From: Rhizobium sp. BT03
Lineage (GTDB): Bacteria > Pseudomonadota > Alphaproteobacteria > Rhizobiales > Rhizobiaceae
Reading direction: 5' to 3'
Length of the DNA stretch: 64,000 nucleotides
Assembly (NCBI RefSeq): GCF_030053155.1
Contig: NZ_CP125640.1
Location: 806,001-870,000 of the forward strand
Both the position numbers and the translations under genes were made by a program. Positions 34,501 through 46,368 of the stretch are shown one piece after another (the stretch's first letter is position 1; every line of letters starts with the position of its first letter). Below the pieces are notes generated by a model that was not told the origin of the DNA, ran no database searches, and was given only the letters and a program-made list of their open reading frames with translations.

Positions 34501-34586
34501 AGACGACAAATGGCCATTGCCGAAACTTGTTCCATCGAGCAACGATACTCGGACTTTAGGCTTAGTCGCTTCAGCCCCTCTCCAGA

Positions 34587-35561
34587 TCACGGCACCTTCG
34601 CGCGCCTCCTGGCTTCGCGCGATCTTGCCGCGCGGCGCGCCGGCCTCAGTTCCTCGATCGTCGGCAGCCACCACTCGGCACCTTGAACGGGAGGGGTTTT
34701 CGCGGGCCATGTGCGGACAAGTTCTTCGAGTGTCGGCGCCCGCCAATATCCCCAGACGTGATCCTCGGTCATGCCGGGATAGAAATCCGCCACGGTATCC
34801 GGCTCGACCAGTTCGCCGGTGATCTCAGCAAAGACGACAATGCCATAGGAGACGGCGACCGGTCTTCCGATCGGCGGCAGATCGTCGCCGGGCAGCGGGT
34901 AGCGATGGCGCTTTCGTTCCGCCGAGCGCAGCTTGCTGCGCATCTCCTGTTCGGTCCCCTTTCGCTCCACGGCGCGGCGCTGTCTCTCCTCCGGCTCGTT
35001 TCGCCGCGCTGCCGCTTCGATAGCGGGCCATCTGTGTCTGAGGTCCTCATAGGATCGGAAGGGAACGTGCCATAGCTTGAGATCGCCGTCCCACCGGGAA
35101 AACGGCACTTCACGCAGTTCGTCGACAACGGTTTTCGAGTATGGCGTGCGGATCCGAAAGCCTGCCTTGCCGAGTTGAAGATAGGGACTGTCGATCGGCT
35201 CGAAGACGAAGGCGTCGCGTCCCTTCGCATCCGCATGGGCGTCGGCTTCGGCCTCCAGTTCGGCAAGCCATCTCCCGATGCGGCGGGGCGCCGTGCGGCC
35301 GGGAACGAACCAGGCCTTGCGGGCGTCGCTCCAGCGGGCACGAGGGAAACGCTTTCGGAACTGCTCGACAGTCATCCTGTCGTAAGGAAAGGAAACGTCG
35401 GCGCCCGGCTTGGGGTCGTCATCGCTGGACAACGCCTCGTCACGATCGGTCGGGGATTTCGTTTCGGTCATGGAAGAAGAACGCTTGCGCGAAGGGATCG
35501 GTTTCCAGTGGGTCGGGCCGAAGCGCTCAATTTGCACGCGGGCACGATAAGCCGCGGGCAA
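34587..35561 (-). CDS. Stand-alone HARP-repeat protein
   Basis: Up to 324 residues, acidic and basic patches, no signal peptide. Two HARP-like units (HepA-related protein domain, normally beside SNF2 helicases) are visible: VSFPYDRMTVEQFRKRFPRARWSDARKAWFVPG and FRIRTPYSKTVVDELREVPFSRWDGDLKLWHVPF. A basic helix follows and the C-terminus holds EEWW-type aromatic residues and an Arg-rich tail. Starts at 35561 (TTG) or 35471 (ATG, MTETKSP) are possible; neither has a convincing ribosome site. There is no helicase gene near it. It may bind branched or single-stranded DNA, by analogy only. Confidence 0.7.
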   Translation of the reverse strand: MPAAYRARVQIERFGPTHWKPIPSRKRSSSMTETKSPTDRDEALSSDDDPKPGADVSFPYDRMTVEQFRKRFPRARWSDARKAWFVPGRTAPRRIGRWLAELEAEADAHADAKGRDAFVFEPIDSPYLQLGKAGFRIRTPYSKTVVDELREVPFSRWDGDLKLWHVPFRSYEDLRHRWPAIEAAARRNEPEERQRRAVERKGTEQEMRSKLRSAERKRHRYPLPGDDLPPIGRPVAVSYGIVVFAEITGELVEPDTVADFYPGMTEDHVWGYWRAPTLEELVRTWPAKTPPVQGAEWWLPTIEELRPARRAARSREARRRAKVP

Positions 35562-35568
35562 TTCCCCG

Positions 35569-35883
35569 TCAGTGAATTGTCTTCAATTGCTGCTCCGCAT
35601 GCGAAATATTATGCAGCGTCGCCATAAGCTTTTCGAATTCGTTCAAGACACGATTGAATTCGGCGTCGGGCATGCCGGTGATCTCAGCTATCGTCGAGGA
35701 AACCGAGGCAATGAGCCTGTCGATCCAGACGCAGCGGTCGGCCGGCACATGGCCGAGAACCTCCTGCCGATGTGTTTGCAGCTCGCGCAGAATGCGGACG
35801 ATAAGGGCGCTCCGGTCCGCCCTGCTCAGCGACCGGAGCCTTGCCTGCGCCCTCTGGATTTCCGTTACCAGCGTCGTCGCCAT
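35569..35883 (-). CDS. Small helical protein of unknown function
   Basis: 104 residues from the ATG at 35883 (MATTLVTEIQRAQARLRSLSRADRSAL...). It is predicted to be almost entirely helical, without membrane segments or cysteine-rich motifs except one Cys. It ends 7 bp before the HARP-protein frame and is probably cotranscribed with it. Upstream lies a CGGAC-N4-GTCCG palindrome. I do not recognise the family. Confidence 0.7.
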   Translation of the reverse strand: MATTLVTEIQRAQARLRSLSRADRSALIVRILRELQTHRQEVLGHVPADRCVWIDRLIASVSSTIAEITGMPDAEFNRVLNEFEKLMATLHNISHAEQQLKTIH

Positions 35884-35938
35884 TCCCCTGATCTCCGCCC
35901 TCAATACAACCGATATCACAACCGTAGCGTTTGCAACA

Positions 35939-35952
35939 CGGACTTAGGTCCG
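35939..35952. promoter_or_regulatory. CGGAC-N4-GTCCG box upstream of the 35883 gene
   Basis: CGGAC-TTAG-GTCCG, perfect 5-bp arms. Same motif as the pairs at 38208, 43364 and 46332. A degenerate -35/-10 pair (CAAAC, 17 bp, GGTT on the minus strand) lies 5 bp from it. Only one copy is clear here. Confidence 0.5.
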
Positions 35953-35975
35953 ACATCGGTTCGCCCCGGCGACGA

Positions 35976-36557
35976 TCAATTGCTCGTCGCCACGATCACC
36001 GGCGCGTCGCAGCCGCGCCGCGGGCCGTCCCACGGCTGATATGTATTATCCTCAGGCCGATACGACCTGTAGCGAGCGGCACACCAGGCCGCCGCCTGTG
36101 CATTCACTTTCGTGCTCGCGCCGTCATCGGCGTCGGCGGCATCAGGCTGGTGCGGCGAAGAGCAGGCGCGGATCTCCCCGCTATAGGATCGATAGCTGTT
36201 GGTCGCAGGATCGAAGGAGCGGTAACGCTCAGCGCACCAGGCAAGGTGTTCGGCCGGAAATTTTGGTTGCGGCCTCAGGCGTTCGGTCGACGGGCCAGCG
36301 GGTTCCGGTTTCGCCCTTACCGTCATGACGGCCGGCGCCTCGGTGACATAACTGGAATAGACGGGCGCAATCCGTTCATATCGCTGCTGCCGAGGGTCGA
36401 TTTTCATCGGCCCCGTCGTCCAGAGATCCGGCTCCGCAAGGACTTGCAAGGCATGGGCTTCGGTATCCGCCACGACGTGCGAAGTAACAGATGCGGCAGC
36501 TATGCAGGCACCCACCGAGCTGACGATGCCGAAGGCGACGGAGACGAGGCCGGTCAT
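35976..36557 (-). CDS. Protein with two BA14K-like motifs
   Basis: 193 residues with an N-terminal hydrophobic segment (GLVSVAFGIVSSVGACIAAASV) that is a signal or anchor. The BA14K pattern (x-W-C-A-x-R-Y-R-S-x-x-P-x-x-x-x-Y-x-x-x-x-G-x-x-x-x-C) occurs twice: around HLAWCAERYRSFDPATNSYR and AAAWCAARYRSYRPEDNTYQ. BA14K proteins are exported, immunoreactive or lectin-like in Brucella and abundant in rhizobia. The ATG overlaps the stop of the upstream small membrane gene by four bases (ATGA). Confidence 0.8.
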   Translation of the reverse strand: MTGLVSVAFGIVSSVGACIAAASVTSHVVADTEAHALQVLAEPDLWTTGPMKIDPRQQRYERIAPVYSSYVTEAPAVMTVRAKPEPAGPSTERLRPQPKFPAEHLAWCAERYRSFDPATNSYRSYSGEIRACSSPHQPDAADADDGASTKVNAQAAAWCAARYRSYRPEDNTYQPWDGPRRGCDAPVIVATSN

Positions 36558-36721
36558 TGTCCCGCCTCCTGCTGTTGCGCCTGTGGAACCCAGACGCGGC
36601 CGGCCGTGCCGCCGTGCCGGCCGCCGGTGGCGACAAGCACGGCGAGGATACCGGCGATCGCCAGCAGAATGGCGACGAGCGGCAGGGCCAGACCAGCGGA
36701 TTTCTGTTCGGAATAGATCAT
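36554..36721 (-). CDS. 55-residue membrane protein
   Basis: MIYSEQKSAG, one long hydrophobic helix (LALPLVAILLAIAGILAVLVA), then a Gly/Gln-rich tail. GAGGAGAGG lies before the ATG at 36721. The stop overlaps the start of the BA14K gene (ATGA), and the DUF1236 gene ends 46 bp upstream, so the three form one transcription unit. Function unknown. Confidence 0.75.
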   Translation of the reverse strand: MIYSEQKSAGLALPLVAILLAIAGILAVLVATGGRHGGTAGRVWVPQAQQQEAGQ

Positions 36722-36767
36722 GTTCCTCTCCTCATCCCGGCGGCGCAAGGCCGCCGGGCGCCGGTTG

Positions 36768-37619
36768 CTATGCCGTGATGATGTAGACGATCGTGAATGC
36801 CGTGGGATCGACGATGACGATCCGGCCGTCGGCGAGGATGAAGAAACGATAGGCCTTGTATTGCGGAACGATCTCCACGATCCGCGGCGGCAGCGGCTCC
36901 AACCTGATCTTCTTCGGAATGGTGGTGCCAACCGAGACCGTGAAGTCCACGTCCCGCACCGGCTCGACATGAACCTCCTTTACGACAGTCCGGATTTCCG
37001 TCTGTTGCTCCACAGAGATGTTGACGTTGGTCGTGTTGTTCGTCTCGGTCTTGGTGGTGTTTTTGGTGTTGGCGTCGACCGAGGTATTGTTGTTCTCGAC
37101 TTTCGTCTTGCTGTTCGACTGAGTTTCGGTCGAGCCGCCGGAAGATTTCGCGGCATCGCCTGATTTTTGGGTTTCGCCAGAACTGTTCGAGGTGCCGGTC
37201 GATGTCCCCTCCTGGCTGCCGGCAGGCTTCTGGCCTTCCGCCGCGGACTGCCCCGACTTCTGCGTCGTCGAGCTGTCCGAGCTTCCGGCCTGCGTCTTGG
37301 CGCCGGACTGAGTCTTGGCACCAGGCTCGGGCGCCGTCTGATTGGGGGATCCATCAGTGGTTCCCGAGGATGCACCCGACGAACTTCCATGAGAGCCCGA
37401 AGGCTGCTGCGTGCCCTGGCCGGTCGATGCGCCTGCGCCGCCCGAAGCAGCACCGCCCGCGTCCGGCTGCTGTGCCGCACCATCGCTGGACTGGCCGCTC
37501 TGCGCGGTCCCCTTTTTGGGAAGGATGGGCGCATCCTGCGCCGAGGCGGACATCATGCCGACCGGAGAAACGCCGATCGAGAGTGCCGTCATCAGAACGG
37601 CGAGTGTCTTGCTCTTCAT
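36768..37619 (-). CDS. DUF1236 protein with long Ser/Gly/Thr/Gln-rich linker
   Basis: 283 residues: signal peptide (MKSKTLAVLMTALSIGVSPV, cleaved near ASA-QD), about 150 residues of low-complexity Ser/Gly/Gln/Thr/Asn sequence, and a C-terminal DUF1236 unit (PPRIVEIVPQYKAYRFFILADGRIVIVDPTAFTIVYII). Exported to the periplasm or surface. Rhizobia carry several such genes; function is unknown. The unusual length of the linker suggests a flexible spacer through the envelope. First gene of a probable unit with the small membrane and BA14K genes. Confidence 0.82.
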   Translation of the reverse strand: MKSKTLAVLMTALSIGVSPVGMMSASAQDAPILPKKGTAQSGQSSDGAAQQPDAGGAASGGAGASTGQGTQQPSGSHGSSSGASSGTTDGSPNQTAPEPGAKTQSGAKTQAGSSDSSTTQKSGQSAAEGQKPAGSQEGTSTGTSNSSGETQKSGDAAKSSGGSTETQSNSKTKVENNNTSVDANTKNTTKTETNNTTNVNISVEQQTEIRTVVKEVHVEPVRDVDFTVSVGTTIPKKIRLEPLPPRIVEIVPQYKAYRFFILADGRIVIVDPTAFTIVYIITA

Positions 37620-37638
37620 AACAATCTCACTGATTTTG

Positions 37639-37671
37639 GCCGCACGACGACGCTGCCGTCCGTCGTGCGGC
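37639..37671 (-). other. Stem-loop in the leader of the DUF1236 gene
   Basis: GCCGCACGACG (37639-37649) pairs perfectly with CGTCGTGCGGC (37661-37671) around an 11-nt loop, 20 bp before the start at 37619. It may protect or regulate the mRNA. Confidence 0.5.
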
Positions 37672-37699
37672 TGATGTAAATGACGATTTGTGAAGTAAG

Positions 37700-37718
37700 A
37701 CGCGGCGGGGGGCCGCGT
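37700..37718 (-). terminator. Short hairpin after the second DUF1236 gene
   Basis: ACGCGGC and GCCGCGT form a 7-bp stem around GGGGG. On the minus strand it is followed by CTTACTTCAC. Probable terminator of the gene ending at 37730. Confidence 0.5.
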
Positions 37719-37729
37719 TGGGCATCAGG

Positions 37730-38128
37730 TCACTTGATGACCTGGATTACCTTGCGGGACGACGGCTCGACGATGACACGTTCATCGTTGACCACCGCGT
37801 AGGCATAGGTCGGATCATCCGGAATAGGCGTTACCACGACCGTTTCCGGCAGCGGCTGCCCGACGACAACCTTCTCCTTTACGACCACGCGCGCCGAAGG
37901 TGCCGGAGCCTCGCGGACATAGGTGACCACCTTTTGCGGCGGCGGATCGATCGCGGTGCCGACGACAGCGCCAGCAACACCGCCGACAGCAGCGCCGACC
38001 GGGCCGCCGACAATCGCGCCGGTGACTGCGCCGCCGGCCGCGCCATTGACGGTCGATGACTGGGCGAATGCGACGCCGGACATGAGGGTCGCAGCAGTTG
38101 CCGCAGAGACGATAAGCTTGGAGAGCAT
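37730..38128 (-). CDS. DUF1236 protein with glycine zipper
   Basis: 132 residues: signal peptide (MLSKLIVSAATAATLMSGVAFA), a glycine-zipper stretch (GAAGGAVTGAIVGGPVGAAVGGVAGAVVG) that can insert in or pack against membrane, and DUF1236 (YAYAVVNDERVIVEPSSRKVIQVI). GAAGGAGGA precedes the ATG at 38128. A GGAAC-N16-GGTT promoter and two CGGAC-N4-GTCCG boxes lie upstream. Confidence 0.85.
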   Translation of the reverse strand: MLSKLIVSAATAATLMSGVAFAQSSTVNGAAGGAVTGAIVGGPVGAAVGGVAGAVVGTAIDPPPQKVVTYVREAPAPSARVVVKEKVVVGQPLPETVVVTPIPDDPTYAYAVVNDERVIVEPSSRKVIQVIK

Positions 38129-38176
38129 ATTTTCCTCCTTCTGTTTTGAAGCGGCCTTGGTGACCGCTGCCAGACC

Positions 38177-38243
38177 AACCAGTTGGAGACGGGGTCGTTC
38201 CACGCCTCGGACCTCAGTCCGATCGATCCCGGTCTTTGGTCCG
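38177..38243 (-). promoter_or_regulatory. EcfG-type promoter with paired CGGAC-N4-GTCCG boxes
   Basis: On the minus strand: GGAAC (38201-38197), 16 bp, GGTT (38180-38177), 48 bp before the start at 38128. Six bases upstream of the -35 begins box 1, CGGAC-CTCA-GTCCG (38208-38221). Box 2, CGGTC-TTTG-GTCCG, is 22 bp further (38230-38243). The same layout and spacings occur at 43364-43431. Confidence 0.6.
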
Positions 38244-38328
38244 AGATCCATGTCAATGTCGGTTGCCGGCGCTACTTTCGGATCGAAAGGAACCGGTCGT
38301 ACCCGGTATCGGCAGGAGACTGAAGGAG

Positions 38329-38625
38329 ATGGCACGATCCAACCGCAAGGAGGCGGGGCGCAGGCGCCTGGCGATGCGTCTGCCTGAGATGCGGAAGCTG
38401 ATCATGGAAGCGCGCGACCCGTGGCAACTCCAGCTCTTCGAAGCCTACCAGATGGCTGTCGAAGCGCGCGATGCCGTTCGCAAGCGGCACTTCGATCCGA
38501 AACGGGTGCAAGAATATGACGAGACCTGTTTCGAGATCGAAAAGCACGTCATCCGGGCGATCCACGAACCTTCCGACGGACCCGCGGCCTTCCAGCGCAA
38601 ACCCGGCGAGCCGTCAGGCCGATAG
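38329..38625 (+). CDS. Conserved-looking small protein of unknown function
   Basis: 98 residues, basic and helical (MARSNRKEAGRRRLAMRLPE..., then LIMEARDPWQLQLFEAYQMAVEARDAVRKR). No membrane segment or known motif. GGCAGGAG lies upstream of the ATG at 38329. A GGAAC is present at 38290 but no matching -10. It converges with the large EAL gene, overlapping its stop by 12 bases. Confidence 0.65.
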   Translation: MARSNRKEAGRRRLAMRLPEMRKLIMEARDPWQLQLFEAYQMAVEARDAVRKRHFDPKRVQEYDETCFEIEKHVIRAIHEPSDGPAAFQRKPGEPSGR

Positions 38626-41379
38626 ACGCTTCCGGACATTCCATTTGGAAAGCATGCGACGAGCCTCGTCCGGCCTCCCGAAGAGATAGCCCTGCCCCGT
38701 CTCGCATCCGAGCCGTTGCAGCGCTTCGGCCTCCGTTTCGGTTTCGACGCCTTCGGCGACGACCTGCAGTTTCAAACCATGCGCCAGCGAAATAATCGCC
38801 CGCACGATCTCCAGCATGGTCGGATTTCCCCTCATTCGCCGGACGAAGGACTGGTCGATCTTGAGCTTGTCGAGAGGAAGATCGGCAAGGTAGCTCATCG
38901 AGGAGTAGCCGGTGCCGAAGTCGTCCAAGGCGATGACGATCCCTGTTTCGCGAAGCGCGCGCATCTTTGCGATCACGGCTCCGCCTTGGCCGAGGAAGGC
39001 CGACTCCGTCAGCTCGAGGCAGAGGCGGGAAGACGGAAGCCCGCTGTTTGACAAGGCCTCCCTCACATCGGCCTCGATGTCGGACTGCTCGAACTGAAGC
39101 GCCGAGACGTTGACGGCGACGCCGAGTTCCCCGGGCCAGGTGGCCGCTTCGGTGCAAGCTTCGAAGAGCGTCCAGCGGCCGATCTCGCAGATCAAGCCGG
39201 AGGATTCCGCAATCGGGATGAATTCGGCCGGAGATATCAAACCGAACTCGGGATGGTTCCATCGGATCAGCGCTTCCGCGCCCAACAGGCGCCCGCTTGC
39301 AAATTCGATCTGTGGCTGGAACAGCAGGAAGAACTGCCGGTCCCGGAGAGCATCACGCATGTCCCGCTCCAGCCGGCGCGACCGGGCCTGGCGAACGGCT
39401 GTGGAAGGATCGAAAGAAGACCATTGCCGGCCGGCCAGGGTCTTTGCAGCATCCAGCGCCGATTCGGCGGCGTTCAGGAGCGCGCCGGCGGCGGCATCTT
39501 CCGAGCTGGCTATTCCGACGTGGACCGAGATCGGCACAGCCGAACCGCGGAGCTGCAGAGGCTCCTCGAATAGGTCCAACAGACCCTCTGCAAAATCCTC
39601 GACCGCCTGTGCATCGACCGCCGGGGTGGCGATGCCGAAATGGTCGCGGTCCAGTCTTGCCAGCAAATTGCCGACGAATGCGTTGCCGAGTCTCACCGCC
39701 ACGGCCTTCAGGAGTTCGTCGCCGACGTCGCGCCCAAGCGTCGCGCAAAGCGAGGAGAAACGTTCGATATCCAGCACCGAGACGAGGGTCCCGCCCTCAA
39801 GGGTTGCCAGACGGGAGGCGAATTCCCGGCGATTGAGCAGCCCGGTCAGGTCGTCCAGCTCTGACAGCGCCTTCAACCGCTCTTCATAATCATACCGCGC
39901 GGTGATGTCCCGTATGATCAGGCAACCGGCAAACCGCGACCGCGCCGAGGCCGGATGCGCATGCGGCTGTTCGATCGGCGAAATCGTGACGGATGCCTCG
40001 TAATGCGTGCCCTGCGAGCCTTTGTCGGAGAAGTCGACAAGGGCCGTGTGCACGTTGCCCGGTTCGCCATCGTGCTCCGCAACCAGCCTGCGCACGACAT
40101 CGACGATGGCGGCGTCGGTGCTGGCGAGAAGGGAGGCGCCGATCTCGGCTCGCAGCACCGCCTTTGCGGATGCGCTCGCTTCGACGATCCTCAGATCGCT
40201 ATCGAATGCAACGACACCGTCCGAACTGTCGGCGATGATCCGTCTCATCAGGCGCCTGGCGTTGCGAGCCTCGGTGTTGGCGATGGCGACCAGCATTCGA
40301 CCGAGGTCGACACGTTCGTTCAGAGCGAGCATCCATGCGAGCAGCAGCATCAGCCACGGCACCGCCGTTCCGACAAGCATCCCGTAGCGCCACTGCAGCA
40401 GGAATGCGCCGATCTCGCCGATGACGACGATGGTCAGTCCGATTGCCATCATCTTGACAATCCCGGTTGAACGGCTGCGGATGACGCCGACGATCAGCAA
40501 GGCTGCAAACAAGAGCTCCAGCGGAGCCTGATCGAACAGCCGGAGGAAGCGCTTCTGAAGCAGCGTTTCCGCGGCGAGCACGTGAATGAGCGGGCCGGCA
40601 ATCGCGCCGTAGACGGGAACGGCGAAAATGTCTTTCAGCTCGGCTGCGGATGCTCCCACCACGACCGAGCGGTTCTTGATCGCCTCGGCCGGCACGGTCC
40701 CGTTCAGCACGTCGGACAACGAGAATGTCGGGATGGTGTCGGGCCTGATCGAATAGTCCACAGCCAGGGAACCGGAACTGCCGTCGACCCTGCCCAGGGC
40801 TGCTGCTGCCGATTGGGTGGGGTTCCCGTCGAGCTGGCTTCCCAGATCGAAACGGCGGACGATCCCGTCCGCATCCAACGCGACATTGGCGAATGCGGGC
40901 CAGGCATTCTCAAGGAACTGCGGGATCGGCCTCGTCACCGCCGTTTCAGACGATGACGCCGTCTCCTGCTGCCGGAACACCGGCAGAAGAACCCCTCCTC
41001 CGGATCTCGCGAGCGCTGCTGTGAGAAGCTCGTCCTCTTCAGTGCTGGAGATTGTGCTGAAATCGACGTCGAGAAAGATATCCTTGACGCCTGAGGCAAT
41101 CAGCTTGTCGAGCAGTGTCGCGTAGATGCTCCGTGGCCAGGGCCATGTCCCGACAGCGTCGAGGGAATGCTTGTCGATCGCAACGAAGACAATGTTGCCG
41201 GTGGCGGTGCGAGGCGCCCATTCGAAGCGCTTGGCGAAAAGATTGTTGTCGATCCCCTGCACGAAGCCGAGGCTGGCCGCGGGCAGCACCAGCATGACGG
41301 CGATCAGCACCAGCCGAACCGCGATCGTGCTGATGCCGTTGGAGAGATAATCCCCAGCCGCCTTGGCCCTACCCCTCAC
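38614..41379 (-). CDS. CHASE2-PAS-GGDEF-EAL protein, probable c-di-GMP phosphodiesterase
   Basis: 921 residues. An N-terminal helix and a CHASE2 sensor domain (to ~310) lie outside the membrane; three helices follow (~315-385), then a PAS-like domain (~385-510), GGDEF (~520-660) and EAL (~675-915). The GGDEF active site reads ARLDRDHFG, so the domain is degenerate and unlikely to make c-di-GMP. The EAL domain is intact: GAEALIRWNHPEFGLISPAEFIPIAE, ALDDFGTGYSSMSYL and KIDQSFVRRM. Its ATG overlaps the FecR gene stop by four bases, so the two are translationally coupled. Confidence 0.9.
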   Translation of the reverse strand: MRGRAKAAGDYLSNGISTIAVRLVLIAVMLVLPAASLGFVQGIDNNLFAKRFEWAPRTATGNIVFVAIDKHSLDAVGTWPWPRSIYATLLDKLIASGVKDIFLDVDFSTISSTEEDELLTAALARSGGGVLLPVFRQQETASSSETAVTRPIPQFLENAWPAFANVALDADGIVRRFDLGSQLDGNPTQSAAAALGRVDGSSGSLAVDYSIRPDTIPTFSLSDVLNGTVPAEAIKNRSVVVGASAAELKDIFAVPVYGAIAGPLIHVLAAETLLQKRFLRLFDQAPLELLFAALLIVGVIRSRSTGIVKMMAIGLTIVVIGEIGAFLLQWRYGMLVGTAVPWLMLLLAWMLALNERVDLGRMLVAIANTEARNARRLMRRIIADSSDGVVAFDSDLRIVEASASAKAVLRAEIGASLLASTDAAIVDVVRRLVAEHDGEPGNVHTALVDFSDKGSQGTHYEASVTISPIEQPHAHPASARSRFAGCLIIRDITARYDYEERLKALSELDDLTGLLNRREFASRLATLEGGTLVSVLDIERFSSLCATLGRDVGDELLKAVAVRLGNAFVGNLLARLDRDHFGIATPAVDAQAVEDFAEGLLDLFEEPLQLRGSAVPISVHVGIASSEDAAAGALLNAAESALDAAKTLAGRQWSSFDPSTAVRQARSRRLERDMRDALRDRQFFLLFQPQIEFASGRLLGAEALIRWNHPEFGLISPAEFIPIAESSGLICEIGRWTLFEACTEAATWPGELGVAVNVSALQFEQSDIEADVREALSNSGLPSSRLCLELTESAFLGQGGAVIAKMRALRETGIVIALDDFGTGYSSMSYLADLPLDKLKIDQSFVRRMRGNPTMLEIVRAIISLAHGLKLQVVAEGVETETEAEALQRLGCETGQGYLFGRPDEARRMLSKWNVRKRLSA

Positions 41380-42329
41380 TTGTCCTTGCCTTTTCCGCCG
41401 GAATTGCCGTTACCGTTGCCGCCGCTGTTGTTGTCACCCTTGCCGCTGTTGCCGTTGCCGTGGCCGTTACCATTCCCATTGTTACCGCTGTCATCGGAAT
41501 GGCCGTTGCCATTGCCGTTGTTGCCGTTTGCTCCGGAATTGCTGTTGCCGTTTCCGTTGCCACCGGAATTGCCGCTGTTGCCGTTACCGCTGCGGCTGGA
41601 ATTGCCGTTGCTCTTGCCGTTGCTAGCGCTGTCATCCTCGCTCGCGCTGGAACTGGTGTTCTTGTTCGTCGCCGAAGAACTGCTCTTGGTCTCTGCGGTG
41701 GCACCGGCGAGTTTCGTGGTACCCACGGCCGGAATCTGGGCGACCGAGGCTGCAACCGAGGTGATCTCGGGCTTGGATAGCCGGCCCGCCACCGTCATAC
41801 CGGCCTTTTTGTCGACGGTCGCACTCTGCCCCGGCGCCACGTTCGACCGCTGGCCGCTGGCGAAGGAGGTGACCTGGACCAGTCCGCGATCCACGGCGAC
41901 CGATGCTTTCGCTCGATTGACCGTCACATGAAAGATCGTCCCTTTCACCACGGCGGCGAGGTAGGGCGTCTGTACCGTCGTATGCGGTTGGCTTCGCTTC
42001 TCGATTTCAAGGTCCAGCGAACCCACCTGCTGGAAGATCTGCGTTTTCATGGCAGCGGATTCGTTGTTGGAGATGGCGGCGAGCGTGTTTGGCTGGAAGG
42101 TAATGCTCTCCACACCCCGGCTAAGCTGAACGCGCCCTCGCGGGCCGGTGGAAACCCATGCCCGGTTGGGAACCACCTCGCCGGCGCGCAGGTCCTGCCA
42201 GTTCGTCCTGTCGACCGTAAATTTTACTTGATCTGTCGCCTTGACGACCCGCCAGTCATCGGCAGCAGCAAAGACGGCTGTCGGCAGCACGATCAATGCT
42301 GCGATCAGAATTCGAAATATTATCAACAT
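41376..42329 (-). CDS. FecR-domain exported protein with Gly/Asn/Ser repeat tail
   Basis: 317 residues. A signal peptide (MLIIFRILIAALIVLPTAVF) precedes a FecR domain (WVSTGPRGRVQLSRGVESITFQPNTLAAI, then VQTPYLAAVVKGTIFHVTV and GLVQVTS). The last ~110 residues are a low-complexity tail of GNGN/SGN repeats ending in KGKDK. FecR domains next to CHASE2 sensor genes are a recurring pair in alphaproteobacteria and may give the signal to CHASE2. The start at 42329 is set by the signal peptide. It is the first gene of a two-gene operon with the EAL protein. Confidence 0.85.
   Translation of the reverse strand: MLIIFRILIAALIVLPTAVFAAADDWRVVKATDQVKFTVDRTNWQDLRAGEVVPNRAWVSTGPRGRVQLSRGVESITFQPNTLAAISNNESAAMKTQIFQQVGSLDLEIEKRSQPHTTVQTPYLAAVVKGTIFHVTVNRAKASVAVDRGLVQVTSFASGQRSNVAPGQSATVDKKAGMTVAGRLSKPEITSVAASVAQIPAVGTTKLAGATAETKSSSSATNKNTSSSASEDDSASNGKSNGNSSRSGNGNSGNSGGNGNGNSNSGANGNNGNGNGHSDDSGNNGNGNGHGNGNSGKGDNNSGGNGNGNSGGKGKDK
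41383..41640. repeat. Gly/Asn codon repeat in the FecR protein tail
   Basis: Short degenerate units coding GNGN, GNSG and GNNGNG on the minus strand (CCGTTGCCGTTACC-like on the plus strand). Similar units recur at 45975-46122 in a different gene. Confidence 0.75.
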
Positions 42330-42445
42330 CAATGCTATCCCTCGGCCTTGAGACGAGTGAAGCATGTTCCAATTAAGAATGATTATAAAACCGCATGACG
42401 ATTGTAGGAATTGTATGATTAATACGCGGGCGCTCGGCCAAGGGA

Positions 42446-43297
42446 CTACGAAACGCGGCCGGTGACGACCAAGGCGCTCATGCCGCCGCTGGGACAAGCT
42501 CCGTGCCGCGCTTCCATTCGCCCGGCCACCTCCTCGACGATCTCGGACATGCGCTCCGGCGCCCGCCATTCGATCTCCCCCCGCAGCGGCGTGCCCTGGC
42601 AGAAGGCCGCCGCAACGTCGTGCGCGGTGGCCGCGACGGCGGTCAATTGGAGCCGGTCGCAGGTAACGGACTCAAAACCCGCCGACGACATCTGCGCCTT
42701 GATCGGGCCTGGGTCGAAGTAAGAGTATGGCAAGCGCCTGAGAAAATCCGGCGGATCAGATGGGAAGAGCTCTGCCAGACATTCATCCACGCAGCTTGCG
42801 AAGTCGTTGGCCGCAAGTGAATCCCATGTCGAGAACAGAAAACGGCCTTTGCCGCGCAACACTCTTTGAGCCTCGCCATAAGCCTTCACCTTGTCGGGAA
42901 AGAACATGGCGCCGAACTGGCAGATGACCAGATCGAACATTTCGGGGGCGAAGGGAAGATTTTGCGCATCGGCGTGCATCCAGTGCGTCCGCGACATCGT
43001 CACCGAGGGTGCGCCGATGTCGATCATCGCCTGGCTGACGTCGGTGGCAACGATCTCCGTCGGCGGATCGAGCGTCGCGCGCAGGGCGCGTGTCAAAGCA
43101 CCCGTCCCTGCGGCGAGTTCGAGAACGCTGCCCGGTTTCGACCGGTCGGCGACGATGGCCATCTCCGCCGCATAGGGCTCGAAGAGGATCGGCACCAGAA
43201 GGGCCTGGTAAAGCTCGGCGACGCCTTGATCGAATGGCGCGGGAGAAGTGGCAGATGAGGCGTGGTCGCCGCTTTCGATATCGGCAGAAATTGTCAC
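42446..43297 (-). CDS. Class I SAM-dependent methyltransferase
   Basis: 283 residues starting with GTG. The SAM-binding motif I is VLELAAGTGALTRAL, followed by EIVATDVSQAMIDIG, MHADAQNLPFAPEMFDLVICQFGAMFF and GKGRFLFSTWDS, the usual order of a UbiE-like Rossmann methyltransferase. Substrate unknown. GGAGG precedes the start. The 160 bp upstream are shared with the divergent promoter of the two-component operon, so it could be a target of the same regulator. Confidence 0.85.
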   Translation of the reverse strand: MTISADIESGDHASSATSPAPFDQGVAELYQALLVPILFEPYAAEMAIVADRSKPGSVLELAAGTGALTRALRATLDPPTEIVATDVSQAMIDIGAPSVTMSRTHWMHADAQNLPFAPEMFDLVICQFGAMFFPDKVKAYGEAQRVLRGKGRFLFSTWDSLAANDFASCVDECLAELFPSDPPDFLRRLPYSYFDPGPIKAQMSSAGFESVTCDRLQLTAVAATAHDVAAAFCQGTPLRGEIEWRAPERMSEIVEEVAGRMEARHGACPSGGMSALVVTGRVS

Positions 43298-43363
43298 TCA
43301 CAAACCTCCACCCTTTCTTCCTCAGGCCTGAAATATGACTGAATCCGCCGATGTCCACGGGGT

Positions 43364-43431
43364 AAGACCTTGGTCCCTACCCTCCCCGACCGAAGTCCGC
43401 AGCGTGGAACGCGCACCGAACCGGCTCCGTT
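43364..43431 (+). promoter_or_regulatory. EcfG-type promoter with paired CGGAC-N4-GTCCG boxes, two-component operon
   Basis: GGAAC (43406-43410), 17 bp, CGTT (43428-43431) is a perfect rhizobial EcfG (general stress sigma factor) promoter, 28 bp before the small gene. Upstream are AAGAC-CTTG-GTCCC (43364-43377) and CCGAC-CGAA-GTCCG (43386-43399), 22 bp apart. Six bases separate the second from the -35. Spacings equal those at 38177-38243. Confidence 0.75.
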
Positions 43432-43458
43432 TCGAACGATACCGAAGGAGATCCTGAT

Positions 43459-43635
43459 ATGGCCTGGAATAACAGATCCCACGTCAATGACGCCTGCAAC
43501 CTGTGCGTCATCGCCCTTGTCGCCATTCTCGCTGGTCTTCTCTACGTCTTCGGCGCAGCCATGTCAGGCGATACGCTGCAGTTGACCAAAAGCATCAGAG
43601 GGGCCGAAATCTTCGATACCAGGGATGTGCCCTGA
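43459..43635 (+). CDS. 58-residue membrane protein in front of a two-component system
   Basis: MAWNNRSHVNDACNLCVIAL is followed by the hydrophobic run VAILAGLLYVFGAAM and a short extracytoplasmic tail with DTRDVP. GAAGGAG lies 12 bases before the ATG. It follows a perfect EcfG promoter by 28 bp and precedes the histidine kinase by 62 bp on the same strand. Its position suggests a signal-chain accessory or a small stress protein; family unknown. Confidence 0.78.
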   Translation: MAWNNRSHVNDACNLCVIALVAILAGLLYVFGAAMSGDTLQLTKSIRGAEIFDTRDVP

Positions 43636-43697
43636 CGCTGTCTGGAAAAATTCTGAGGAAGCGATAGGTTAGTCGGCAGTCTCATACCGGTATCACA

Positions 43698-45086
43698 ATG
43701 AATTGGCTTCGCCGCTGGAATGCCCGCTCACTCGCCTCCCAGTTCTTCATCGCGGGTGGGTTGATCTCGATTGCCGCCATGTTCCTGGTGGGCATTCTCG
43801 TCACCCACCTGATCGAGGAGGCGGTCATCCACAATTCCGGTGCTGCGACGGCGCTCTATGTCGACAGCGTTGTCGCACCGCTGCTTCCCGACATGCAAAC
43901 GGCATCATTCCTCGACGAAGGCAGTGCTCAGGCTCTGGACGAGACGCTCGGTCAGGGGGCGCTCGGTAGGCGCCTTATTTCGTTCAAGCTCTGGCGAAGC
44001 GATGGCACCATCCTCTATTCGAACGAGAAGGAGATGGTAGGCAGGAGGTTTGCGGTCAGCGACAAGCTCCGGAAAGCCTTCGCGGGCTCTCTCGTCGCGC
44101 GCTACGAAATCGCCGACGATCCGGAAAGCGACAAGGAGCGTGCACTCGGCAAGCCACTCATGGAAATTTACAACCCCGTGCTCCAGCCATGGTCCGGCCA
44201 GGCGGTCGCCGTCATCGAATTCTACGAAACGGCGGAAGGATTAGCCGACAGTCTGGCCCATGCCAGGCTGCGGAGCTGGGCCGCAGTCGCCGCTTTGACG
44301 GCAATCTTTTTCCTTGTTCTCGCGGTCCTGGTTTTTCGGGTCAGCCGGACGATAGAGGCGCAGCGCAAGGATCTCAAAGAACGGGTCAGCGATCTGTCAG
44401 CGCTGCTGGCGGAAAACCGCGGGCTGCAGCGGCGGCTGCAGCGCGCCTCCCAGCGCGTGGCGGCGCTGAACGAAACCTATCTGCGCAGCATCGGCGCCGA
44501 TCTGCACGACGGCCCGGCCCAGCACATCGCCTATGCCTCACTGCGGCTGGACAGCGATATGCTGATCAACGCGTCGACCCTGCCCGAAGCGCGGGAAAAG
44601 GAGCTCGCGTGGATACGCTCGAGCCTTGCCGAGGCGATGACCGAGATCCGCAATATCTGCAGCGGACTGGTCCTGCCGCAGATCGAGAAGTCCTCGATCA
44701 GCGAAATCGTGACCCGGGTGGTCGAAGCGCATCAGCACAAGACCGAAACCCGCGTCGAAACAATCATCGACGATGATGGCCCCGAACTCGCTCCTGCTGT
44801 AAAGATCTGCATTTATCGCTTCGTGCAGGAAGCCTTGAACAACGCCTATCGCCACGGCGGCGGTATTCAGCAGGCCGTAAGAGCGGTCTCGCACGATGGT
44901 CATGTTCATGTCGAGGTCAGCGACCGCGGCGACGGCTTCGACCCGACCGAGGTGAGGCCGACGAGCCTCGGCCTGGTGGGGCTTCGCGAACGTATCGACA
45001 GCCTGGGGGGATCCTTCGAGATCAAGACGGGCGAAGGAGGGACGACGGTGACCATGACCTTCGAGCCTATGGAAGCAGGAGACTAG
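43698..45086 (+). CDS. NarL/DegS-type sensor histidine kinase
   Basis: 462 residues: TM helix ~15-40, a periplasmic sensor domain (~40-190, containing FKLWRSDGTILYSNEKEMVGR, typical of Cache-like folds), TM helix ~195-220, a coiled-coil linker, HisKA_3 (RSIGADLHDGPAQHIAYASLRLD, with the phosphorylated His) and an HATPase domain (YRFVQEALNNAYRHGGG, DRGDGFDP, LGLVGLRERIDSLGG). It phosphorylates the response regulator encoded three bases downstream. The input is unknown. Confidence 0.92.
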   Translation: MNWLRRWNARSLASQFFIAGGLISIAAMFLVGILVTHLIEEAVIHNSGAATALYVDSVVAPLLPDMQTASFLDEGSAQALDETLGQGALGRRLISFKLWRSDGTILYSNEKEMVGRRFAVSDKLRKAFAGSLVARYEIADDPESDKERALGKPLMEIYNPVLQPWSGQAVAVIEFYETAEGLADSLAHARLRSWAAVAALTAIFFLVLAVLVFRVSRTIEAQRKDLKERVSDLSALLAENRGLQRRLQRASQRVAALNETYLRSIGADLHDGPAQHIAYASLRLDSDMLINASTLPEAREKELAWIRSSLAEAMTEIRNICSGLVLPQIEKSSISEIVTRVVEAHQHKTETRVETIIDDDGPELAPAVKICIYRFVQEALNNAYRHGGGIQQAVRAVSHDGHVHVEVSDRGDGFDPTEVRPTSLGLVGLRERIDSLGGSFEIKTGEGGTTVTMTFEPMEAGD

Positions 45087-45088
45087 AA

Positions 45089-45712
45089 ATGACATCAATC
45101 ACTATCGGCGTCGTGGACGACCATCCGCTTTTTCGCGAGGGCGTAACACGCAGCCTGTCGGAGATCAGCGACTTTGCCGTCGTTGGGGAAGGCGCCAGCA
45201 GCGACGACGCAGCGATGATCGCCGCGAACAACCGACCCGATGTCATGCTCCTCGATGTTTCGATGCCCGGCGGCGGACTGTCGGCGATCGGCGCCGTGCT
45301 GACGCGCAGCCCGACAACGAAAGTGCTGATGTTGACGGTATCCGAGGAGGTGGACACGCTGCTGACGGCCCTGCAACGGGGCGCAATGGGCTATGTTCTC
45401 AAAGGGGTCGGTTCGCGTGGTCTCGCCGAAGCCATCCAGACCGTGCTGAGTGGATCACGATATATCTCGCCGACGATGTCGACAAAGGTCATGGAGAATT
45501 CGCTGAATGGCGGCGCCTCCGACAAAAACAGTCTGACGCCGCGGGAACGCGAGGTGATGGATCTGGTCGCTCAAGGCTTGTCAAACAAACATATCGGCTT
45601 GCGTCTCAGCCTGCAGGAAAAGACGGTGAAGCATCATATGACACAGATTCTAAGCAAACTCGGCGTCTCGAACAGGACTGAAGCGGCGCTTCAATGGCGC
45701 GAGCAGCACTAA
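45089..45712 (+). CDS. NarL/LuxR-family response regulator
   Basis: 207 residues. The receiver domain shows VVDDHPLFREG (acidic pocket), MLLDVSMPGG with the phospho-acceptor Asp, and YVLKGV (conserved Lys). The C-terminal LuxR helix-turn-helix is LTPREREVMDLVAQGLSNKHIGLRLSLQEKTVKHHMTQILSKLGV. It starts 2 bases after the kinase stop, so translation is coupled. Its recognition site may be the CGGAC-N4-GTCCG box found twice before its own operon and before other envelope genes. Confidence 0.93.
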   Translation: MTSITIGVVDDHPLFREGVTRSLSEISDFAVVGEGASSDDAAMIAANNRPDVMLLDVSMPGGGLSAIGAVLTRSPTTKVLMLTVSEEVDTLLTALQRGAMGYVLKGVGSRGLAEAIQTVLSGSRYISPTMSTKVMENSLNGGASDKNSLTPREREVMDLVAQGLSNKHIGLRLSLQEKTVKHHMTQILSKLGVSNRTEAALQWREQH

Positions 45713-45716
45713 TTAC

Positions 45717-45738
45717 GCCGCTTTTCTCTTGCGGCTTT
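45717..45738 (+). terminator. Weak hairpin after the response regulator gene
   Basis: GCCGC and GCGGC form a 5-bp stem around TTTTCTCTT, followed by TTTT. It lies between two convergent genes. Confidence 0.45.
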
Positions 45739-46250
45739 TAGCGAAGGTAGCGGCCTAACCGGCGGGCATCGTTTGCAGTCGCTTGCCGGCTTATGATCGT
45801 CCTGCCTTTTCCGTCCTTCATCACGTAGCGGCCGCGCCGCAAGGTTTCGGTAATGCCGTTCGCATGGCGGACGTCGATCGAGCCATCGGACGCTTCGGTC
45901 GCGCTTGCGCCCGATTCTTGTGAGGTCCCAGTGGCGGAAGACGAGGCAGAGGAAGAGGATCCGGAACTATTGCTGGAGCTTCCACCACCGCTGTTGCCCG
46001 AACCGCTATTCCCGTTGCCGCCACTATTGCCGTTGCCGCCACCGCTGCCGTTACCGCCGCCGTTGCCATTTCCTCCCCCGTTGCCGTTTCCATTGCCATT
46101 GCCGTTATTGCCGTCCTTTGCCTCGGCGCTTTCTACCGTCAGAACAGGGAGGGAGCCGTCGAGATCGAATGTGGCCGGCGATGCGGCAGCGACGAGGGCG
46201 ATGGCCGCGCTGCCGCCCAATCTCAGAAAATCGCGTTTCGACAATGTCAT
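45738..46250 (-). CDS. Exported protein with Gly/Asn/Ser repeats
   Basis: 170 residues. The N-terminus (MTLSKRDFLRLGGSAAIALVAAASPA) resembles a Tat-type signal with K-R instead of R-R. A low-complexity block of GNGN and GSGNSGGGSSS units covers about half the protein. The C-terminal ~45 residues (VRHANGITETLRRGRYVMKDGKGRTIISRQATANDARRLGRYL) are conserved in style and may be the functional part. Function unknown; it shares the repeat type with the FecR protein. A GGAAC-N16-CGTC promoter and two CGGAC-type boxes lie upstream. Confidence 0.75.
   Translation of the reverse strand: MTLSKRDFLRLGGSAAIALVAAASPATFDLDGSLPVLTVESAEAKDGNNGNGNGNGNGGGNGNGGGNGSGGGNGNSGGNGNSGSGNSGGGSSSNSSGSSSSASSSATGTSQESGASATEASDGSIDVRHANGITETLRRGRYVMKDGKGRTIISRQATANDARRLGRYLR
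45975..46122. repeat. Gly/Asn/Ser codon repeat
   Basis: Degenerate 6- to 12-bp units coding GNGN, GNGGG and GNSG on the minus strand. Protein-coding low complexity rather than a DNA satellite, since third positions vary. Confidence 0.7.
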
Positions 46251-46290
46251 GCCATAGCCTCGTCGTTCTTCGCCGTCTCTACGCAATATA

Positions 46291-46368
46291 GACGCGCGGC
46301 AATTTTCGCCGTTCCGGCGGGCAAAAGCAACCGGACCTAGGTACTAGATCAGGCAGGACTTTGGTCCT
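46291..46368 (-). promoter_or_regulatory. Possible EcfG-type promoter and paired boxes
   Basis: Minus strand: GGAAC (46315-46311), 16 bp, CGTC (46294-46291), 41 bp before the start at 46250. Further upstream are CGGAC-CTAG-GTACT (46332-46345) and AGGAC-TTTG-GTCCT (46355-46368), 23 bp apart. Here the gap to the -35 is 16 bp instead of 6, one helical turn more. Confidence 0.5.

Follow-up and report, generated by a model that had tools for sequence, protein, structure and literature searches.

The locus described here raises the question of which protein reads a set of short palindromes that stand in front of several of its genes, and to what effect. In the 64,000-nucleotide stretch of Rhizobium sp. 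BT03 that was analysed (the window; positions 806,001 to 870,000 of NZ_CP125640.1, part of a 4.5-Mb contig in a 6.9-Mb genome), seven copies of a box with the consensus (C)GGAC-Y-W-W-R-GTCC(G) lie in four promoter regions, most of them next to promoters resembling those of the stress sigma factor EcfG. We propose, at a probability of roughly 0.74, that a two-component response regulator encoded in the same locus binds these boxes and co-activates the EcfG promoters, which would make the boxes an operator-based AND gate on an envelope sub-regulon; the comparisons behind this proposal are of sequence throughout.

Seven palindromic boxes in four promoter regions

An initial annotation of the window had listed eight sites for the motif CGGAC-N4-GTCCG. 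In its strict form this motif occurs in the window only at 35939 and 38208; the sites at 38230 and 43386 have one mismatch, those at 46332 and 46355 have two, and the site at 43364 is absent from the window matches with up to two mismatches. That loose form is not enriched in the window (47 found, 64 expected) and therefore proves nothing by itself. Because the strict palindrome is found at two sites only and the loose one is unenriched, the motif was rebuilt without the window. The training set comprised 80 loci with a homologue of the response regulator encoded at 45089–45712, picked by protein only, 60 of which are left after removal of near-duplicates. In a survey of half sites of the form XXXX-N4-rc(XXXX) (rc, reverse complement) across the 7-kb surroundings of the regulator, GGAC ranks first among all 256, with 48 palindromes observed versus 6.5 expected, distributed over 31 of the 60 loci. 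The spacer of 4 alone stands out (48 versus at most 13 for every other spacer from 0 to 12), and the consensus derived from the relatives is the one given above.

A weight matrix was built from 39 exact sites and 19 partners in the relatives' loci, with the window excluded; orthologues of the promoters in the window are among these loci. It finds seven sites in the window with scores of 13.5–21.1, all others scoring 9.8 or less. When trained without the Rhizobium etli-like clade (L016–L028) it places the same seven first, at 11.6–20.8, with the next at 9.7. The seven sites are:

35939..35952, minus strand: single box before the 35883 gene; score 21.1, the highest of all; kept in 7 aligned relatives
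38208..38221, minus strand: proximal box of the DUF1236 gene; score 18.4; kept in 9 aligned relatives
38230..38243, minus strand: distal box of the DUF1236 gene; score 14.0; recognisable in 9 aligned relatives
43364..43377, plus strand: distal box of the kinase/regulator operon (AAGACCTTGGTCCC); score 13.5, or 11.6 without the close clade; kept in 7 aligned relatives
43386..43399, plus strand: proximal box of the kinase/regulator operon; score 13.9, or 12.6 without the close clade; kept in 7 aligned relatives
46332..46345, minus strand: proximal box of the Gly/Asn-repeat gene; score 15.3; kept in most of 10 aligned relatives
46355..46368, minus strand: distal box of the Gly/Asn-repeat gene; score 18.2; kept in 10 aligned relatives, with a base change in two

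In footprinting against 7–10 close relatives, the boxes stand out as conserved islands in the four promoters, one base of the 46332 box being lost in L017 and L018. The eighth site of the initial annotation, a half copy at 34550 before an L,D-transpeptidase gene, was rejected as a chance match: none of the six relatives alignable at this position has it, and its GGAAC precedes the ATG by only 28 nt.

The possibility that the other seven are likewise chance palindromes in GC-rich intergenic DNA, given an apparent order by gaps chosen afterwards, draws on this lost site, on the two-mismatch pattern being no commoner than in shuffles, and on the window read backwards, which yields three matrix sites scoring at least 10 versus seven in the forward direction. 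Matrix sites nevertheless exceed a Markov null, under which 0.3 sites scoring at least 13 are expected per 64 kb (maximum 2 in 60 runs), so that the motif stands against random DNA in its matrix form and not in its loose form. The box is uncommon in the genome as a whole, with 58 copies of GGAC-N4-GTCC (158 for the reversed-pattern control), of which three fall within the 10.4-kb locus (0.09 expected, P ~1e-4). Matrix, footprinting, and the genome-wide pair, phase and phyletic comparisons below all contradict chance, and for seven of the eight sites we consider that reading refuted; on these comparisons the box motif in the window is real.

The pair spacings originally given are correct: the boxes lie 22 bp apart before both the kinase/regulator operon and the DUF1236 gene, and 23 bp apart before the Gly/Asn-repeat gene. 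Pairs near kinase/regulator homologues, which had been predicted, are found at similar distances. Across the 80 loci, with near-duplicates kept and up to one mismatch per box, the spacing is 22 bp in 23 cases, 23 bp in 13 and 24 bp in six, with smaller groups at 33 and 44–46 bp; 46 of the 72 pairs at 13–60 bp fall at 20–24 bp, where ten control palindromes reach 13 of 37 at best. In the BT03 genome the sole double boxes with a single mismatch in 16 positions are those of the DUF1236 and Gly/Asn-repeat promoters. The double box of the operon promoter has two, and is tied with C1:1487380 and C1:4196782, both of which lack the Y..R centre.

Two further places in the genome were not counted as targets. 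A one-mismatch box at C1:212599, with a gap of 7 before GGAAC-N17-CGTT, lies inside a reading frame, and the double box at C1:425111 (L211), which has three mismatches and Y..R centres, lacks GGAAC. The latter precedes a tiny frame that possibly encodes a 29-aa membrane peptide and is a candidate extra target. A separate observation concerns L031 (R. cauense): the region from +1206 to +1532 relative to the regulator holds three matrix sites and, by eye, further half boxes, together with one GGAAC at gap 0, and could be a control region with multiple operators.

The boxes accompany a NarL-type regulator family

The proteins that would act through the boxes are encoded side by side:

43698..45086, plus strand: sensor histidine kinase with HisKA_3 and HATPase_c domains
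45089..45712, plus strand: NarL/DosR-type response regulator with receiver and GerE domains, the proposed box-binding protein

The regulator scores above cut-off for PF00072 and PF00196 (receiver and GerE/LuxR helix-turn-helix) and the adjoining kinase for PF07730 (HisKA_3 type) and PF02518. In a protein-based homologue search the nearest relatives of the regulator are from Rhizobium species.

A site scoring at least 10 is present between -3000 and +2500 of the regulator start in 54 of the 60 dereplicated loci, and in a control stretch of equal width (+4500 to +10000) in 8 of the 60. Since these loci had also served to train the matrix, the scan was repeated with leave-one-out training, which again gives a near site in 54 of 60. 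Where both stretches are complete (46 loci), the near and far counts are 42 and 7 with the matrix, and 25 and 3 with exact GGAC-N4-GTCC. Binned by position, the sites peak upstream of the kinase, at -2000 (34 sites), and again at +1000 (37 sites), which in the window corresponds to the region upstream of the gene after the regulator. Loci with a near site include Devosia (L089) and Paracoccus (L086) and, beyond Alphaproteobacteria, span Gammaproteobacteria, Betaproteobacteria and Chloroflexota, with Motiliproteus (L094), a betaproteobacterial metagenome-assembled genome (MAG; L093) and Chloroflexota-type MAGs (L087, L088, L090). The early suggestion that this NarL-type protein is the candidate binder is supported by these comparisons, and the palindromes are probably the operator of the linked two-component system, a reading with good comparative support.

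Another protein, for example an unlinked NarL-family regulator, could instead bind the boxes, with the linked two-component system merely one of its targets, and the genome does hold another 24 regulator matches at E <=0.001. The regulator itself is single-copy, and the next match shares 35% identity with it. Double boxes are lacking within 1.5 kb of all the other 24, two of which have a lone exact core nearby that lacks the Y..R centre. The box moreover tracks this particular subfamily across phyla, and its arrangement with GGAAC before DUF1236 genes (see below) is not seen in genomes lacking the regulator, all of which speaks against such a protein and leaves it most improbable.

Boxes in helical register with EcfG-type promoters

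Three of the box-bearing regions have a promoter with GGAAC:

43406..43431, plus strand: EcfG-type promoter of the kinase/regulator operon, GGAAC-N17-CGTT
38177..38201, minus strand: EcfG-like promoter of the DUF1236 gene, GGAAC-N16-GGTT
46291..46315, minus strand: weak EcfG-like promoter of the Gly/Asn-repeat gene, GGAAC-N16-CGTC

The promoter motif of R. etli sigma-EcfG1 is GGAAC-N16-CGTT in the excerpted text of PMC3892343. The operon promoter has a spacer one longer and is the only exact GGAAC-N16/17-CGTT in the window. The genome also encodes NepR, the anti-sigma factor of EcfG.

At 38208 and 43386 the 14-bp box is separated from GGAAC by 6 bp (7 from the 12-bp core), as had been noted, and at 46332 by 16 bp (17 from the core); the other promoter for which a 16-bp gap was claimed is the chance match at 34550. 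In 57 cases with a GGAAC within 40 bp of a 12-bp core, in which the boxes of one pair share one GGAAC, the distance is 6–7 bp (17 times), 17 bp (once), 27–30 bp (24 times), 39–40 bp (10 times) or elsewhere (five times). Windows on an 11-bp ladder, set after the distances had first been seen and covering 11 of the 41 offsets with 27 excluded, take in 49 of the 57, and the exact boxes give a Rayleigh peak at 11.0 bp (R 0.74, n=31). Of 88 boxes from outside the R. etli-like clade, 26 have GGAAC within 40 bp (7.7 expected; two GGAAC are counted twice among the 26), 22 of the 26 at 6–7, 27–30 or 39–40 bp. NGTT follows at N16/17 after 18 of these 26, compared to 117 of 2428 for any GGAAC in the 60 loci. 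Within the Rhizobiales, the fixed helical phasing first described for the window is found outside the close clade too, and the 16-bp-gap class in the close clade only. L025 (8252) and L027 (8233) have double or triple boxes halfway between a pair of divergent GGAAC promoters, both at gaps of 7, one directed towards the kinase operon and the other towards a DUF1236 gene.

If GGAAC is taken as the -35, the box centres would fall near -49 and -71, on one helix face. Activators in general touch sigma region 4 or the alpha C-terminal domains, and these positions would suit such a protein. The degenerate -35 elements at 35939 and 46332 could belong to promoters leaning more on the activator, although this is conjecture.

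The regulator might bind the boxes and yet repress or tune the EcfG promoters, or might work with the housekeeping sigma, GGAAC then marking a separate overlapping promoter. The box at 35939 speaks for this, since CAAAC, TAATC or CGAAC stands in place of GGAAC in the window and the relatives, as do the kinase-operon boxes outside the R. etli-like clade, which in many relatives, and in most cases, lack GGAAC. Because of these boxes the link of regulator and box appears older and wider than that with the extracytoplasmic function (ECF) sigma factor, and the ECF coupling a later or partial feature. The sites nevertheless do not overlap the -35 but lie upstream of it, in steps of 11 bp, as expected of an activator, and the box-near GGAAC are over-represented and mostly have the right -10. 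We consider repression, tuning or a housekeeping promoter unlikely, though less so than a different binding protein.

DUF1236 promoters in genomes with and without the regulator

The DUF1236 promoters were compared in 30 regulator-bearing and 30 regulator-lacking genomes, hand-picked from 394 (regulator threshold E 1e-50). A DUF1236 homologue is present in all 30 of the former and in 20 of the latter, and 30 loci were taken per set, one per genome and from the 20 genomes, respectively. Gene starts were placed by tblastn and promoters sought within 400 bp. An EcfG-like promoter is found at 22 of the 30 loci with the regulator and 17 of the 30 without, a box at 9/30 and 1/30, and a box with GGAAC in register (6–7, 27–30, 39 or 50) at 9/30 and 0/30. 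By genome this arrangement is present in 9/30 versus 0/20 (P 0.007), and within this sample it is restricted to regulator-bearing genomes; that set contains closer DUF1236 homologues than the other, a bias that remains in the counts. Three of the nine boxed loci are on a different contig from the regulator (G138, G140, G145). This comparison suggests that, in genomes with the regulator, the box is an added module on stress promoters already in place.

Dispersed boxes with GGAAC

Among the 394 family genomes, 103 have an exact box-N6-8-GGAAC string and 104 have the regulator (E <=1e-50). The string occurs in 40/104 genomes with the regulator and in 63/290 without (hand tally; P 0.001, not corrected for genome size). 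As a stand-alone marker the search was rejected as too noisy; it is informative only in combination with a Y..R centre, a -10 or proximity to the regulator. Sixteen strings, in 11 genomes, lie within 10 kb of the regulator by hand comparison, with ~0.18 expected on the assumption of 150 strings and 5-Mb genomes.

The genes downstream of the strings in 20 dispersed regions, which were picked by eye, include DUF1236-like genes (L195, L200, L201, L197), a Gly/Asn-repeat gene (L190) and a BA14K gene (L193), named by eye except that of L195, which was matched to DUF1236 at 74% identity. In L190, from another genus, a gene that by eye resembles the Gly/Asn-repeat gene of the window has both box and GGAAC. 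NGTT at N16/17 accompanies 12 of 20 gap-6/7 strings in the hand-picked regions, versus 3 of 22 strings with other centres. Separately, a promoter of the form GGACTGAAGTCC-CATGGY-GGAAC recurs in the genus g71 (L186–L192), in many cases with N16 followed by CGTT or GGTT; its copies are spread across several contigs, away from the regulator.

Relation to known systems

The best named NCBIfam families for the regulator are NarL, MadR and MctR, all below curated cut-offs (152 of 250, 146 of 300 and 141 of 300 bits, respectively), and NarL is its best solved structure. DosR/DevR of Mycobacterium and OsdR of Streptomyces are likewise NarL-type regulators with a G/C-rich palindromic box, located before their own gene as here. 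The regulator is 35% identical to the DevR chain 3c3w and shares the recognition helix EKTVK of DosR/DevR, with the next residue being H rather than the N of DosR. The residues that we take to be the DosR contacts, and a box consensus that is presumably GG(G)AC-N4-GTCC(C), were compared with the helix and boxes of the regulator. The half site here is GGAC, unlike the DosR/OsdR boxes, and the targets also differ, being EcfG-type promoters and envelope-looking genes; DosR/DevR regulators govern a dormancy regulon responding to hypoxia and NO. The OsdR consensus AGGGCCGATCGGCCCT is said to conform to that of M. tuberculosis in the excerpted text of PMC5069765.

The kinases differ as well. The partner of DosR/DevR is a GAF-domain haem sensor kinase, whereas Pfam finds no GAF domain in the kinase described here, only HisKA_3 and HATPase domains. 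Its structure model (mean pLDDT 79.6, pTM 0.42) has by eye an alpha/beta sensor domain between two long membrane helices, and the best Foldseek matches of the model are a WalK model, LOV-kinase chimeras and DesK. Sequence comparison of the sensor to solved structures gives no convincing match (only beta-lactamases, E 0.09–0.5).

Joint activation by a response regulator and an ECF stress sigma is described, in PMC4064291, for AlgZR and AlgU at algD of Pseudomonas aeruginosa, where the AlgR gene is itself under the ECF factor AlgU and AlgR, of the LytR/AgrA type, binds distant sites. Here, in contrast, the protein is of the NarL type and the boxes lie directly upstream of the -35 in helical register. 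With the EcfG/NepR/PhyR general stress response the locus shares GGAAC-N16-CGTT promoters and NepR. EcfG targets are assigned by sigma motif in the excerpts of PMC3892343, and those of PMC6599016 allow for stress-dependent additional regulators and name no activator box. A literature search turned up no publication that deals with this box or connects this regulator to EcfG; its coverage was partial, so that this absence is weak.

A proposed AND gate

We suggest that the membrane kinase (43698–45086) would phosphorylate the NarL/DosR-like regulator (45089–45712), dimers of which would bind the tandem (C)GGAC-Y-W-W-R-GTCC(G) palindromes, 22–23 bp apart on one helix face and in -35 register. At GGAAC-N16/17-(C)GTT promoters the bound regulator may recruit EcfG RNA polymerase or stabilise it. 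In this way the system would control its own operon along with a small number of envelope or secreted proteins (the DUF1236 glycine-zipper protein, the Gly/Asn-repeat protein and the 35883 product), and transcription would require stress-released EcfG plus the kinase signal. Binding, phosphorylation, activation over repression, the identity of the sigma factor and the AND logic are the predicted parts of this scheme.

Several observations weigh against it, in addition to the boxes without GGAAC described above. Six of the 60 loci (L026, L046, L047, L070, L083, L092) have no near site. Double boxes with up to three mismatches in 16 positions are fewer in the BT03 genome than matches to the reversed pattern, both at 22 bp (23 vs 41) and at 23 bp (19 vs 56). 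The recognition helix reads EK-T[VI]-K-H in all 60 of 60 loci, in part through selection since EKTVKHHM was among the homologue-search words. The -35 of the 46291..46315 promoter is degenerate in several relatives. No box precedes 21 of the 30 DUF1236 loci in regulator-bearing genomes, and the lone box of the regulator-lacking set, which scores 10.8, lies 337 bp upstream and lacks GGAAC. None of the eight Y..R strings among L096–L125 has the -10 (NGTT at N16/17). The ladder windows chosen after the fact, the regions picked by eye and the many strings in regulator-lacking genomes count on the same side.

Other genes of the locus

The 35.5–46.4 kb region encodes a 104-aa protein, a BA14K protein, two DUF1236 proteins, a CHASE2-GGDEF-EAL protein, a FecR-domain Gly/Asn-repeat protein, a methyltransferase, the kinase/regulator operon and a further Gly/Asn-repeat protein. 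The genes behind the boxes, other than those of the kinase and regulator, are:

35569..35883, minus strand: 104-aa protein behind the single box; sub-threshold FliG_N match only
37730..38128, minus strand: glycine-zipper DUF1236 envelope protein; PF06823 above cut-off, Gly-zipper match below cut-off
43459..43635, plus strand: 58-aa membrane microprotein with a single helix (by eye), encoded by the first gene of the kinase/regulator operon
45738..46250, minus strand: Gly/Asn-repeat protein with a Tat-like N-terminus (by eye); no Pfam match

Frames similar to the 58-aa microprotein are present in the close relatives L016–L022, L025 and L027, and searches of Pfam and NCBIfam give no match for it; this conserved microprotein may tune the kinase. 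The FecR-domain protein with long Gly/Asn repeats adjoins the CHASE2-GGDEF-EAL protein (38614–41379 and 41376–42308).

Implications

EcfG regulons are commonly assigned by sigma motif, and a conserved activator box in -35 register would explain a response of part of the regulon to an extra signal. Co-activation of EcfG promoters by the two-component regulator would, if true, give the kinase/regulator pair a testable regulon of DUF1236, Gly/Asn-repeat and possibly BA14K envelope proteins, and would provide a natural example of a response regulator working with an ECF polymerase. The box-plus-promoter pattern is searchable in any Rhizobiales genome. In the broadest form of the proposal, to which we give even odds, an old, phylum-crossing module of NarL-type regulator and box would have been wired onto EcfG promoters in the Rhizobiales as a dedicated co-activator, so that an envelope sub-regulon would fire only with a second, kinase-sensed signal.

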